From an uncultured Prevotellaceae bacterium (GTDB taxonomy: Bacteria; Bacteroidota; Bacteroidia; Bacteroidales; Bacteroidaceae), in the NCBI GenBank assembly GCA_949299545.1, contig CASGAM010000006.1, positions 124,001 to 188,000 on the forward strand: a DNA stretch of 64,000 bases. Reading direction: 5' to 3'. The notes below the pieces were generated by a model, which was not told where the DNA came from, made no database searches, and saw nothing but the letters and a program-made list of their open reading frames with translations. Numbering within the stretch: the stretch's first letter is position 1; every line of letters starts with the position of its first letter. Of this stretch, positions 9,642-23,986 are shown one piece after another. A program made the translations under genes and the position numbers.

Positions 9642-10527
9642 TGTTTGCAGGTCATATTGTTTGGTGGCAGACAGTGGCTCTACTAAAACGGCGTGGTGTC
9701 TGTTCGCTGTTTACGGGGAGGCTGAACGGTATGTGATGACCAAAGGACTTAATCCGTCAGTGCAGGACGGCACTGCGATTCAGGCGGTACTCGATGGAGA
9801 GTTGCGGCCACAGATTGACAGAGAACTGAAAAATGCAGAGATGCTGCATATCTTCTTTTTCGGCGCAGGATGTACGGCTGCTGCTGCACCTGAAATGCGT
9901 GAACGTCTGATGTCCCTGCATGATAACGCGTTTGTAGAAGTGCATTCCGACATGTTGGGAGCAGCACGTGCTTTGGCCGGTAACCGCGAGGGTATTGTCT
10001 GTATATTGGGAACAGGCTCCAACTCTTGCCTTTACGATGGTGAAAACATTGTGTGTAATACACCGCCATTAGGCTATGTTCTCGGGGATGAGGGTAGCGG
10101 TGCCGTGCTTGGCAAGACTTTGGTTGGCAACCTGTTGAAAGGTATTTTTCCGTCAACTATGAAAGAGGACTTCCTGTCTCGATTTGGTCTCACAGAGGCT
10201 ACCATCATCGAGAATGTGTACAGACGTCCTGCGGCTAATCGCTTTTTGGCTTCTTTTGCGCCTTTCATTTACGAAAACAAGAAGGTAGATTGTGTACATC
10301 GTATGCTGGTCAAATGTTTTGAAGATTTCTTTGTCAGGAATGTGGATGCTTATGGCCGTAACGAACTGAAGGTAAATTTTGTAGGTAGCATCGCATGTTT
10401 TTTTGAGGAAGAACTGAGGGAAGCGGCTTTGCATACACATCATATTGTGGGAAATATTGTGCAAAATCCGATAGAGCGTTTGGTCGCTTTTTATCACGAA
10501 CGCATGTGCAGAAATAAGTGCGAATAA
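9634..10527 (+). CDS. BadF/BadG-type N-acetylglucosamine/MurNAc kinase
   Basis: A 297-residue kinase of the BadF/BadG/BcrA ATPase superfamily (ASKHA fold), the group containing GlcNAc kinase and MurK. Phosphate-1 motif VADSGSTKTAWCLF is near residue 10, GTGSNSCLY near 130 and LGDEGSGAVLG near 150. I chose ATG 9634, preceded by GGAG, over an upstream ATG at 9607 that would lengthen the overlap with the permease to 35 nt. Expected reaction: ATP-dependent phosphorylation of GlcNAc and/or MurNAc delivered by the neighbouring permease. A hairpin followed by T-rich sequence ends the operon at about 10570. No MurQ etherase gene is present in this window. Confidence 0.85.
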   Translation: MNDVCRSYCLVADSGSTKTAWCLFAVYGEAERYVMTKGLNPSVQDGTAIQAVLDGELRPQIDRELKNAEMLHIFFFGAGCTAAAAPEMRERLMSLHDNAFVEVHSDMLGAARALAGNREGIVCILGTGSNSCLYDGENIVCNTPPLGYVLGDEGSGAVLGKTLVGNLLKGIFPSTMKEDFLSRFGLTEATIIENVYRRPAANRFLASFAPFIYENKKVDCVHRMLVKCFEDFFVRNVDAYGRNELKVNFVGSIACFFEEELREAALHTHHIVGNIVQNPIERLVAFYHERMCRNKCE

Positions 10528-10546
10528 GTATTTTTTAATAATTATC

Positions 10547-10570
10547 CATGTTTTTTTGGAAACATGTTTT
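10547..10570 (+). terminator. Hairpin terminator after the salvage operon
   Basis: CATGTTT (10547-10553) pairs with AAACATG (10560-10566), followed by TTTT. It sits 20 nt after the kinase stop codon. Confidence 0.5.
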
Positions 10571-10587
10571 ATAGCATAAAGAAATGC

Positions 10588-10618
10588 TTGTGTAATGCTT
10601 AAAATGGAACTATCTTTG
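10588..10618 (+). promoter_or_regulatory. Bacteroidota promoter of small transcript A
   Basis: TTG at 10588-10590, 20 nt spacer, then TATCTTTG at 10611-10618, an exact TAnnTTTG -7 box. No coding frame follows; the next element is a terminator 60 nt downstream. Confidence 0.75.
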
Positions 10619-10623
10619 CAACG

Positions 10624-10709
10624 TTATCCTGAAAACAATCTTTTTACCTTAAACAAAACTAATACCTAAAAAACTAGGAAAAAGGGACGCTGTGAAGCGT
10701 CCCTTTTTT
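10624..10709 (+). ncRNA. Small orphan transcript A (about 86 nt)
   Basis: A predicted RNA from about 10624 (about 6 nt after a perfect -7 box) to the T-run at 10709. The 3' end is a strong terminator: GGGACGCT (10684-10691), loop GTGA, AGCGTCCC (10696-10703), six T. The body (10636-10674) contains CAATCTTT, ACCTTAAA, CTAATACC and AAAAAC, each the reverse complement of a block in transcript B at 19405-19443, in the matching order. No ATG lies in it. Promoter-to-terminator units of this form are typical of Bacteroidales small RNAs such as the Bacteroidales-1 family. I cannot confirm membership without a covariance search. Confidence 0.65.
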
Positions 10710-10914
10710 GTGGCATCCTCTTTTGATGCGTATGTGCCAATGTTATGGATGATTTGTAAAACATCCAAACAGAAAGTTGTGACAGTCTCTTTTGCGTGCG
10801 GCAAAGCTTTTTTTCTTGCTGTTCTGTTTTCTTTTATTAACGCTGTAGCTTTGGATTTTATTTTGATTTGTTTTATCTTGCCACTGATATTCAGTAGTCT
10901 AATCTTAAAAACAC
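10710..10914 (+). promoter_or_regulatory. aqpZ upstream region with -7 box
   Basis: TAGCTTTG at 10846-10853 matches the TAnnTTTG -7 consensus. The -33 region, TCTG at 10823-10826 with a 19-nt spacer, is imperfect. It gives a leader of about 55 nt for the aquaporin gene. Nothing else is recognisable between the terminator of transcript A and this promoter. Confidence 0.45.
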
Positions 10915-19367: not shown

Positions 19368-19398
19368 TTTGCAGATAAGAATAAAAGCCTTACCTTTG
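19368..19398 (+). promoter_or_regulatory. Bacteroidota promoter of small transcript B
   Basis: TTTG at 19368-19371, 19-nt spacer, TACCTTTG at 19391-19398: a perfect consensus match with no full-length gene behind it. Confidence 0.8.
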
Positions 19399-19403
19399 CA
19401 TCG

Positions 19404-19471
19404 TGTTTTTCATGGTATTAGATTTAAGGTTAATTAAAGATTGGTTGTCGTGATGACAACCTTCTTTTTTT
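19404..19471 (+). ncRNA. Small orphan transcript B (about 68 nt)
   Basis: A predicted RNA from about 19404 to the T-run ending at 19471. The terminator is GGTTGTC (19443-19449), loop GTGAT, GACAACC (19455-19461), then TTC and seven T. The body contains GTTTTT, GGTATTAG, TTTAAGGT and AAAGATTG (19405-19443), all complementary to blocks of transcript A at 10636-10674. It also contains a 13-codon frame (ATG at 19412, TGA at 19451) whose stop falls in the terminator loop, so a leader-peptide role cannot be excluded. I favour a small RNA because no gene follows closely. Confidence 0.65.
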
Positions 19472-19704
19472 GTATATACTCCTTTCGCGAAAATAATTCC
19501 TGTTTTTGTTTGGATTCAGCGCAATAGTTTTCTGTAGAACGTCATTTCAAGTTCATTTGTAGCAGGTGCGTGAGTGGAAAATCTGCACCGGTTTTCCAGA
19601 GAGCCTTTCATATTCCGTCCTGTGGATGGATGGCTGTTTTTCTCCTGTTCCGGAAACGTCTGACGGCCTGTTTTGGCAGCCTGCAATGACGTCTCAAAAT
19701 GCAA

Positions 19705-19783
19705 GCGGTCGCAGCATTTGCTGCGTGCGGTCGCCTTGTAGCAGCGACAGGTAGAAAATTTTGTTGCGACCGCTCGCAATTTT
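19705..19783. repeat. Palindromic intergenic repeat, copy 1
   Basis: Segment 19729-19783 aligns without gaps to 48536-48590 with about 6 mismatches in 55 positions. It holds four GCGGTCGC/GCGACAGG/GCGACCGC-type half-sites, starting at 19705, 19727, 19744 and 19766; the first two face opposite to the last two. A small inverted repeat GCAGC-ATTT-GCTGC (19711-19724) lies inside. Confidence 0.7.
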
Positions 19784-21958: not shown

Positions 21959-21994
21959 AAATATTTCTTTTGATAACTTTAAGTCTAATAATTT

Positions 21995-23986
21995 ATGAAA
22001 AAGAAAAGTATTTTATGGTTGCTCATCCTGTTGCCACTTATCGCGCAGGGTAAGCGTGAAGTCGTATATACCCGTTTGCAGTCGTTGTATTCCAATGCGG
22101 GGATTCTGACGATGGACAAGGTGGCGTTGTCCGATACGGCCACGGTCATGTATTTTACAGCAAAAGGGGCTATCAACAGTGGTTTCCAATTTGCTCCGAC
22201 AACCTATTTGATTGATGAGGAGGGTAAACGCTATTCCTTAAAAGGGGCAGTGGGACTGACCGTCGGCAAACCAAGTTATATTCCCAAGACCGGACAAATG
22301 GAATTCAGTCTGCTCTTTGAGCCGATGCCGACGGATACGAAACTATTTGATCTGGTGGAAGGGGCAGATGAGGGCATGTTCCGCATTTATGGTATCCATG
22401 ACGCCAAGGTCAATGTGAAGATTCCGGTCGCTGAAGAAGTAATAGATCCGGAGGAAACGGCGGAAGCAATGTTCCGAAAGGGGACGGCCGTGGTGCGCGG
22501 TAAAATCGAGTGGAATACCGACAACCGGAATGCCGGACTCATGTTCTTTAATTTTGCGAAGATGGGTGAGGCCGACATCGTGCCTTACGAGATGACCCGG
22601 CAGTGTGCGATCCTGCAAAAGGACGGGACATTTTATGCGGAACTTTCCTTAGACCATCCGGTGTGGGCGGATATGACGCTGAAAGGGATGAGCCCCATTT
22701 CCTTTTATGTGCGTCCCGGCGACACGCTCGACATTACGGCCAAAAAGACGGCAGCCAACGATATGGCGGCAGAGTATGCCAGCAGTCATCCGAAAGGGTG
22801 TTATGCCAGTTTGTTGAAACATCAGGATGTACCGTTCGTCCTTTACAGTTGGGAGCGTCTGACACAAAACGAACAGAACCTCAGTAATGAGCATTTCCTG
22901 AAAGAAGTTGAGGCATGTGTGGCTGAAAATATGAGGCTTTGCGATTACTTTGCATGGAAATACCGGTTTTCTCCGTGGGAAACACATCTCCTGAAGAACC
23001 GGCAGCGGCTCGTTTTGACAGAAAGAAATCTTTTGTTAGCCTCTCGCTTGTTTGAAACCCATGTGCAAGTTCCGCGGAACAGGGTCGTGGAAGCGGAAGA
23101 TTTTATCGGTTACGATTATTCGGCTTTTAAGCTGTTGAATATATTCCCGTCTTTGGATGACCCGTCTTTGTCTTTCATGCCTGACGCTTTGGGTTATCCG
23201 TCGGTGTTGAATAAGGTACCGCCCGTCACCTTTGCGACATCGTATGCTTCTTTCAATAAATCTCCGGAAGGGGTCGATGTTCCGTCTGCCAGGGATTATA
23301 CCATGATGGAAACGGTGCGCTTGCAGGTGGAGGCCATACGCGACCTGACCGGAATGGAAGGTGTGCCATGGGCGGTGCAGGCTTTCCTTACTTCCATGAT
23401 TACACGGCTCTATGATTTTATGGGACCTGAAGAGCGCGAAAACTTTGTGTCGTATGTGTCTTCCTATTTGACATATCCTTTTTTCCAGAAAAAAATCGTG
23501 GAGCTGAACCGTTTGATAGAACGTTCGGCGTCATGGCTTTATGAGTTGCCGGAAGGGAAAGGTTATCAAAGCATAAAGAACGCGTTGGATGACTATAAAG
23601 GACGGTATGTGCAAATGGTATTTCTGGATTCACCAAAAGAGGATTACCGGTTTTATAACAGCACATCGGTGAGAAACCTGGCATTAGACTATAATAAGAA
23701 CAATTCTGACTTAGTATTTCTTGTGATTGTCAATCGGGATGTCTATGCCGGAACGAAGGAGCTTGATAGGTTGCAGACTGGGCTGAATCGTCCGCGGCTA
23801 ATGTGGTTTGACAATGAGACTTTCTTGGAAATGCAAAGTCTGCTCAGATTTTCCGGGGTTGCGGCGCAAAGGACTTTCGACCGCAACGGGCTGGTGTTCA
23901 AACGGTCGCTTGACATGACAAACGAAACTTATTTCCGTCAGTGTTTACGCAATATATTGGAGGCAGAAAATAAAATGCCTAAATAA
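21995..23986 (+). CDS. Secreted protein with degenerate thioredoxin-like C-terminus
   Basis: A 663-residue exported protein with signal peptide MKKKSILWLLILLPLIAQG. The N-terminal part (20-270) contains YLIDEEGKRY, MFRIYGIHDA and the SFYVRPGDTL turn known from TlpA/DUF4369-like Bacteroidota proteins. A helical middle part follows. The last 130 residues (RYVQMVFLDSPKEDYRFYN, RNGLVFKRSLDM) have thioredoxin-like spacing but no CxxC, so disulfide chemistry is not expected. It is the intact paralogue of the frameshifted gene upstream; the two arose by tandem duplication, including their upstream element. The function is unknown. A terminator follows 55 nt after the stop. Confidence 0.75.
   Translation: MKKKSILWLLILLPLIAQGKREVVYTRLQSLYSNAGILTMDKVALSDTATVMYFTAKGAINSGFQFAPTTYLIDEEGKRYSLKGAVGLTVGKPSYIPKTGQMEFSLLFEPMPTDTKLFDLVEGADEGMFRIYGIHDAKVNVKIPVAEEVIDPEETAEAMFRKGTAVVRGKIEWNTDNRNAGLMFFNFAKMGEADIVPYEMTRQCAILQKDGTFYAELSLDHPVWADMTLKGMSPISFYVRPGDTLDITAKKTAANDMAAEYASSHPKGCYASLLKHQDVPFVLYSWERLTQNEQNLSNEHFLKEVEACVAENMRLCDYFAWKYRFSPWETHLLKNRQRLVLTERNLLLASRLFETHVQVPRNRVVEAEDFIGYDYSAFKLLNIFPSLDDPSLSFMPDALGYPSVLNKVPPVTFATSYASFNKSPEGVDVPSARDYTMMETVRLQVEAIRDLTGMEGVPWAVQAFLTSMITRLYDFMGPEERENFVSYVSSYLTYPFFQKKIVELNRLIERSASWLYELPEGKGYQSIKNALDDYKGRYVQMVFLDSPKEDYRFYNSTSVRNLALDYNKNNSDLVFLVIVNRDVYAGTKELDRLQTGLNRPRLMWFDNETFLEMQSLLRFSGVAAQRTFDRNGLVFKRSLDMTNETYFRQCLRNILEAENKMPK

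Follow-up and report, generated by a model that had tools for sequence, protein, structure and literature searches.

What are two small RNA genes of an uncultured Prevotellaceae bacterium that carry complementary blocks in reverse order, and do their products act on each other? The window, i.e. the whole stretch of 64,000 nucleotides that was analysed (G000:C6:124001-188000, from an assembly of 2.32 Mb that is 79% complete), holds two such units, A and B, which the original prediction described as orphan transcripts with collinear complementary blocks. All four blocks were read back in the sequence as exact antiparallel complements, amounting to 30 bp. The promoter and terminator claimed for each unit were recovered as well, as TAnnTTTG -7 boxes (10611-10618 and 19391-19398) and as 3' hairpins in both folds. 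The features are the following.

10587 to 10590, plus strand: -33-like box of A, CTTG, read by eye, 20 nt upstream of the -7 box
10611 to 10618, plus strand: -7 box of A, TATCTTTG, of the TAnnTTTG form
about 10623 to 10710, plus strand: A, a BTnc060-like small RNA and candidate FopS antagonist, both ends inferred and the start set by analogy with FopS
10636 to 10643, plus strand: block 1 of A, CAATCTTT, complement of 19436-19443
10646 to 10653, plus strand: block 2 of A, ACCTTAAA, complement of 19423-19430
10659 to 10666, plus strand: block 3 of A, CTAATACC, complement of 19414-19421
10669 to 10674, plus strand: block 4 of A, AAAAAC, complement of 19405-19410
10679 to 10710, plus strand: terminator-like hairpin of A, from the plus-strand fold
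19391 to 19398, plus strand: -7 box of B, TACCTTTG, of the TAnnTTTG form
19403 to 19474, plus strand: B, a FopS small RNA (RF04319)
19405 to 19443, plus strand: FopS region with the four complements of A
19405 to 19410, plus strand: B block, GTTTTT
19414 to 19421, plus strand: B block, GGTATTAG
19423 to 19430, plus strand: B block, TTTAAGGT
19436 to 19443, plus strand: B block, AAAGATTG
19443 to 19471, plus strand: terminator hairpin and T-run of B, read in the sequence; it folds

Identity and anatomy of the two small RNAs

The check with covariance models and Rfam that had been suggested was carried out, and the description as orphans did not survive it: B exceeds the cut-off of the FopS family (RF04319), A resembles BTnc060 (RF04184), and a model of our own, R1, finds homologues of A. 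B scored 84.7 bits (E 4.9e-11), above the curated gathering cut-off of 56, and is, on sequence grounds, a member of the FopS family; the genome of the window has four FopS matches, three of them above the cut-off. In Bacteroides thetaiotaomicron, 14 FopS sRNAs repress susC-type and other glycan genes via the R1' seed, and the seed as a whole comprises R1 and its 3' extension R1' (PMC11697453). B has the seed region, the single-stranded 5' part and the terminator in common with the family, and no notable difference was seen from the part of that description covered here (RF04319; PMC11697453). Its seed lies in a single-stranded 5' stretch that is followed by an intrinsic terminator, the 3' side of the seed being partly in weak pairing in the predicted fold. 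Downstream of the gene, at 19711-19780 of the window, repeated and inverted GCGGTCGC-like stretches were noticed by eye.

The match of A to RF04184 runs from 10514 to 10710 (87.3 bits, E 2.4e-14), under the gathering cut-off of 228.9. It spans the whole model, and close similarity is confined to the last ~88 nt; the Rfam model also takes in ~120 nt that precede the conserved -7 box and are poorly alignable with A. The conserved 3' 88 nt of BTnc060, which in our own description (not that of Rfam) consist of TTATCCTGAAAACAATCTTTTTACCTTAAA..CTAATACC and a terminator, are present in A, and the two RNAs are near-identical in the 5' half of this portion. A is a homologue of the last ~88 nt of BTnc060. 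Matches to RF04184 at E of at most 1 occurred in 123 of 151 genomes of the family, the cut-off being reached in none of the 151. No function of BTnc060 was found in print in the main texts of open-licence papers.

The pattern scan gave no sigma-70 promoter at A, sigma-70 not being the Bacteroides promoter type; the CTTG of A resembles the TTTG box of Bacteroides only weakly. The 3' hairpin has 13 pairs in the plus-strand fold. On the plus strand the stem absorbs most of the T-run and the hairpin escapes the pattern scan, which listed it for the minus strand alone.

In an alignment of 27 homologues, the 5' half of the A family is near-invariant (TTATCCTGAAAACAATCTTTTTACCTTAA) and is followed first by an A-rich linker, whose length varies, and then by CTAATACCTATTGAAAAC. 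The terminator stem was rebuilt, with two-sided changes that keep the pairing in nine of ten stem pairs. The AAAAAC form of block 4 is common to two genus siblings (L033 and L036), and most other homologues have TATTGAAAAC. A constant single-stranded stretch joined to an interchangeable terminator, as read from this alignment, corresponds to the architecture of base-pairing sRNAs. A full TAnnTTTG box lies upstream of 51 of 104 parsed A copies, and by eye the other 53 retain TTTG. Of the 104, 99 passed a rough terminator test; one copy was too short and four failed, among them a mis-parsed copy (L031) and two with good hairpins in which TTT is absent at the expected place.

The genes around A vary between lineages, as a comparison of 58 A loci revealed: by eye, A lies on the glnS and phoU side in Bacteroides-like genera and on the glgB side in other families, and in the window it is flanked by genes for a BadF-type ATPase and an aquaporin (Pfam). 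This variation over the 58 loci ruled out A as a cis element of an adjacent gene and fits a trans-acting RNA. A second copy in the genome of the window (G000:C29:143719-143802, found with R1) is, by eye, next to glnS, the position that A has in Bacteroides-like genera. Two irregular arrangements were also seen: in L031 (G097) the 5' half of A is tandemly duplicated ahead of a complete copy, and one genome (G023) has four degenerate A-like copies (L181-L184) with block 3 damaged or lost.

Complementarity to the FopS seed and rival partners

The four blocks of A cover the R1/R1' seed region of FopS. A collinear 30-bp chain with B was not obtained in any of 3000 dinucleotide shuffles of A (mean 9.6, maximum 25). 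The energy of the A-B duplex, -26.5 kcal/mol, was attained by 2 of 3000 shuffles, and that of the second A copy with B, -32.4 kcal/mol, by none of 3000. Once the second A copy and strands antisense to FopS are excluded, eight of 46,274 60-nt windows in 464 kb of the same genome still outrank A as partner of B by energy alone. In the same 464 kb, B pairs best with the second A copy if strands antisense to FopS are disregarded, and FopS B is the top trans partner of A as well as of the second copy. A chance likeness of two AT-rich small RNAs could draw on the two shuffles that attain the A-B energy and on the eight unrelated windows that score lower. The chain length, absent from all 3000 shuffles, speaks against it, as do the z-scores below -3 (mononucleotide shuffles) of 73 of 77 A copies with the FopS of their own genome, these 77, out of the 104 parsed copies, being those of the 73 genomes from which FopS sequence was also taken. 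The co-occurrence of the two RNAs, presented below, points the same way, and chance, already disfavoured by these comparative data, is hardly credible as an explanation.

Native A-FopS pairs, at -26.59 kcal/mol, were only slightly better than swapped pairs, at -26.38 (p 0.026, relatedness ignored), and native-versus-swapped pairing was dropped as a sign of strong covariation, the effect being only ~0.2 kcal/mol. With two forms of FopS, the BTnc060 consensus gives duplexes of -26.5 and -24.2 kcal/mol, and with GibS one of -23.4, its match to GibS being more interrupted than that to FopS; discrimination of FopS against GibS by BTnc060 would be modest at best.

The genome of the window has 16 susC-type matches, eight of them over the family cut-off, and none of the eight start regions (0/8) pairs strongly, so they were set aside as obvious FopS targets. 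The best of them reached -20.6 kcal/mol with two FopS copies; the values for these two are -26.5 and -21.2 with A, and -32.4 and -27.4 with its second copy; with the second FopS form, A barely beats the susC start regions (-21.2 vs -20.6). One other site is predicted in the window, at an ORF for which no Pfam family was found at E 0.001.

21961 to 22020, plus strand: possible FopS mRNA target (prediction), start region of the 663-aa ORF at 21995; duplex with B, -28.9 kcal/mol

A could instead be an ordinary mRNA-targeting sRNA with targets of its own, their leaders being like TTAAGGTAAAAAGATTG, in which case the FopS match would be a by-product or FopS would sponge A. The most conserved 17 nt of A are the exact complement of TTAAGGTAAAAAGATTG, and the match to FopS is interrupted and looser; FopS pairing also fails to account for the first ~12 nt of A, which are conserved. 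The leader of an ORF for a hydrophobic 33-aa product (L453, G000:C25:71279-71295) has one mismatch to the complement of the 17-nt core and reaches -37.1 kcal/mol with A, compared with -31.7 for B, and two more sites, each with two mismatches, are located at CDS starts or immediately ahead of them. This ORF, however, is not conserved in the genus, with no convincing homologue in 17 other genomes, and its leader was dropped as a conserved A target. Sites with up to three mismatches number 17 genome-wide, against 12 for the reversed control, and the only exact matches are on the strands antisense to the two A copies. Block 3, moreover, fits FopS and would be superfluous under mRNA targeting. Taken with the viral counts below, which are at control level, this makes mRNA targeting by A a rather unlikely main role.

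Among viral contigs, 11 contain the 17-nt core, and several of these have its complement in a gene leader; two control patterns of the same composition yielded 11 and 17 viral contigs, and a phage link of A was rejected as chance. A 22-mer of the FopS seed was present in 42 viral contigs (L409-L450; raw count), in agreement with reported phage FopS. No A element was found in these fetched stretches carrying the FopS seed, and both motifs together occurred in none of 53 viral stretches (L398-L450; partial contigs).

Co-occurrence with FopS and drift of the pairing blocks

At the family level, R1 detected A in 113 of 151 genomes and FopS was found in 142, above the cut-off in 127; none of the nine FopS-negative genomes was among the 113 with A, whose sequences were read in 64. 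At the order level, R1 matched in 38 of 295 genomes and FopS in 67, of which 56 were above the cut-off. One R1 match (G233) consisted of the terminator only and was removed, and the remaining 37 A genomes, all read, had FopS without exception (37/37; Fisher 6e-29, relatedness ignored). Counted by families, all 15 that bear A fall inside the 27 that bear FopS, of ~112. The converse fails: 30 of 67 FopS-positive genomes at the order level and 29 of 142 at the family level gave no A match, including three f88 genomes with strong FopS matches, although absence is unproven, as the A searches were strictly filtered, with few candidates scored in each genome, and many of the genomes are incomplete. 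A is mostly present in one or two copies, with up to four listed per genome.

The distance between the two genes differs among genomes. In a genus sibling of the genome of the window (L207:440-900, G048:C22), a tandem of A and a FopS gene occupies one strand, with ~110 nt between the two; the distance is 1.3 kb in G087:C42, 1.8 kb in G146:C40, and 9 kb in the window.

The 104 parsed A copies also allow the drift of the pairing blocks to be followed, in homologues that come from a model search and are biased to the model consensus. Block 1 is present in all 104, a constancy that is partly by construction since it served as the parsing anchor. The first 7 nt of block 2 are exact in 86 copies, altered in a G-U-preserving manner only in 10, and broken or affected by an indel in 8. 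Block 3 is exact in 57 copies, changed in a G-U-preserving manner only in 38, and broken or affected by an indel in 9; hence, in 38 of the 47 altered copies, the only changes are C-to-T or A-to-G, which retain the pairing as G-U. These tallies count copies, not independent events. Four of the broken copies are the degenerate ones of G023, and two copies were corrected by hand in the block counts: the mis-parsed half-copy L031, and L200, whose block 3 was reset to CTGATATT.

All six possible G-U-preserving changes of block 3 are present, in several lineages (C1T, A3G, A4G, A6G, C7T and C8T), and the variants TTAATACC, CTGATACC, CTAGTATC, CTAATGCC, CTAGTACC and TTAATACT belong to different families or genera. 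Outside the degenerate and indel copies, the sole breaking type is C8G (G004). By hand arithmetic, this distribution of substitution types has a probability of 5e-5 if changes are random among 24 types, a figure that leaves out the four G023 copies, three f26 deletion copies and L195 (an insertion), and of 0.036 if only transitions are considered; it weakens to 0.06, likewise by hand, when degenerate and indel copies are included. Counted by eye as lineage events, 20 preserving changes stand against 4 breaking ones (binomial 2e-9 to 9e-5, according to the transition share), in a list that omits the same copies and also the indels of L197 and L202.

A second, named sample of at least 120 stretches, chosen by exact blocks 1 and 2 and overlapping the first, in which the lengths of five of its contigs recur, had 100 exact copies of block 3, 10 with preserving changes only, 1 break, 7 in which the block was unrecognisable, some of which may be broken block 3, and 2 that were cut off.

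FopS seeds are mostly alike, with two types, GGTATTAG and AGTATTAG, and some spacer insertions. In genus g30 (G030, G053 and G134), FopS (L239, L247, L240, L248, L241 and L250) is altered opposite block 2, with GGTATTAGATTTTTAAAGTT or similar instead of GGTATTAGATTTAAGGTTA, and A is unaltered. A comparison of the FopS seeds with the A copies gave no clear case of two-sided compensation, the changes being one-sided and mostly G-U-preserving. The expectation that base changes in one RNA would be matched in the other was thus not clearly borne out, as in g30, where FopS changed and A did not follow. The idea of two RNAs meant to pair, with A as a sponge, nevertheless remains the best fit, as regards the constant presence of FopS in A genomes and the G-U-preserving nature of most changes; it is clear compensation that it lacks.

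Three genomes, G066 (L169/L170), G029 (L173/L174) and G014 (L178/L179), have two types of A each, one CTAATACC-like and one with TTAATACT. Both FopS types, GGTATTAG and AGTATTAG, occur in G014, G017 and G021. G017 and G021 gave one A match each, of the TTAATACT type, which leaves a one-to-one match of A and FopS types unproven.

The alternative offered originally, one element cloned in opposite orientations, finds no support as a recent event, since A and FopS are separate families across many families of the order; an ancient origin of both from susC-like starts is conceivable. If both RNAs derive from susC-type start regions, in sense and antisense, their complementarity might be inherited rather than functional, and the reverse complement of FopS and A do each resemble a susC start region by eye. 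Inherited complementarity would be expected to decay, yet the 5' region of A is near-invariant while its terminator stems were rebuilt, and the block-3 changes lean to G-U-preserving types. No FopS-free lineage with a freely drifting A was found. We therefore regard mere shared ancestry as improbable.

A candidate antagonist of FopS

A pairing partner of FopS that acts in trans is suggested by several features in combination: complementarity to the FopS seed, detection of A only alongside FopS, drift that mostly keeps the pairing, transcription signals of its own and shifting neighbours. A sponge is the most economical role for such an RNA, because FopS is usually multicopy with known targets in a relative and A is mostly present in one or two copies. 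On balance, we favour a role of A as a conserved sponge, a trans-acting FopS antagonist that perhaps mimics FopS target sites. The action might also run in the reverse direction, or A might have an extra mRNA role.

In such a mechanism, A would be a stand-alone sRNA that uses its 5' half, which is largely unstructured, to pair with the seed region of FopS. The seed would be occupied by A, FopS would perhaps be destabilised, and A would relieve the FopS repression of susC-type mRNAs. The FopS-complementary part of A resembles the start regions that FopS is suited to bind: the reverse complement of FopS, ACCTTAAATCTAATACyATGAAAAAC, and the A homologues, ACCTTAAA(A)nCTAATACCTATTGAAAAC, have the same order of elements, and the ATG is absent in A. 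Homology, promoter and terminator anatomy, complementarity, co-occurrence and substitutions leaning to pairing-preserving types are computed results; transcription of the RNAs in this bacterium, their pairing in the cell, an action of A on FopS and not the other way round, and an effect on sugar uptake are inferred.

To our knowledge, QrrX is the closest known analogue of A. QrrX of Vibrio cholerae is also stand-alone, has its own promoter, and pairs with a sequence common to Qrr1-4, as A is predicted to do with FopS; in the account covered here, it is experimentally shown and Hfq-bound, whereas A is predicted only (PMC9732341). Of the properties of a QrrX-type sponge, A has complementarity to the FopS seed and co-occurrence with FopS (113/113 and 37/37 genomes). 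Bacteroides has been reported to be without classical sRNA chaperones (PMC11697453). In B. thetaiotaomicron, the RbpB protein binds FopS and counteracts it, possibly by titration (PMC11697453). RbpB is a protein and A an RNA that would have an equal net effect on FopS. As far as that report was covered, RbpB is the only FopS antagonist named in it (PMC11697453). sRNA sponges are mentioned in general terms in PMC7366714. Neither a FopS sponge nor BTnc060 was found in the portions of main text covered in the open-licence literature, including PMC11697453, PMC7366714, PMC10994844, PMC10861873, PMC13370916 and PMC10294740.

More tentatively, and with somewhat less than even confidence, BTnc060-like RNAs might constitute a sponge family dedicated to FopS across Bacteroidales, a mimic of the susC start region devoid of a start codon, through which one or a few genes would tune the activity of up to 14 FopS genes and, with it, much of glycan uptake. 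Some genera may have sponges of two types (CTAATACC-like and TTAATACT) that match the FopS types (GGTATTAG and AGTATTAG), an idea that arises from the presence of both kinds of each together in G014.

In a major gut symbiont, FopS sRNAs repress glycan importers at the level of translation (PMC11697453). If the proposed role of A is true, this would be the first RNA sponge proposed in Bacteroidota, as far as the open-licence literature shows, and an RNA antagonist would add an input to the glycan-importer switch and give BTnc060 a function.
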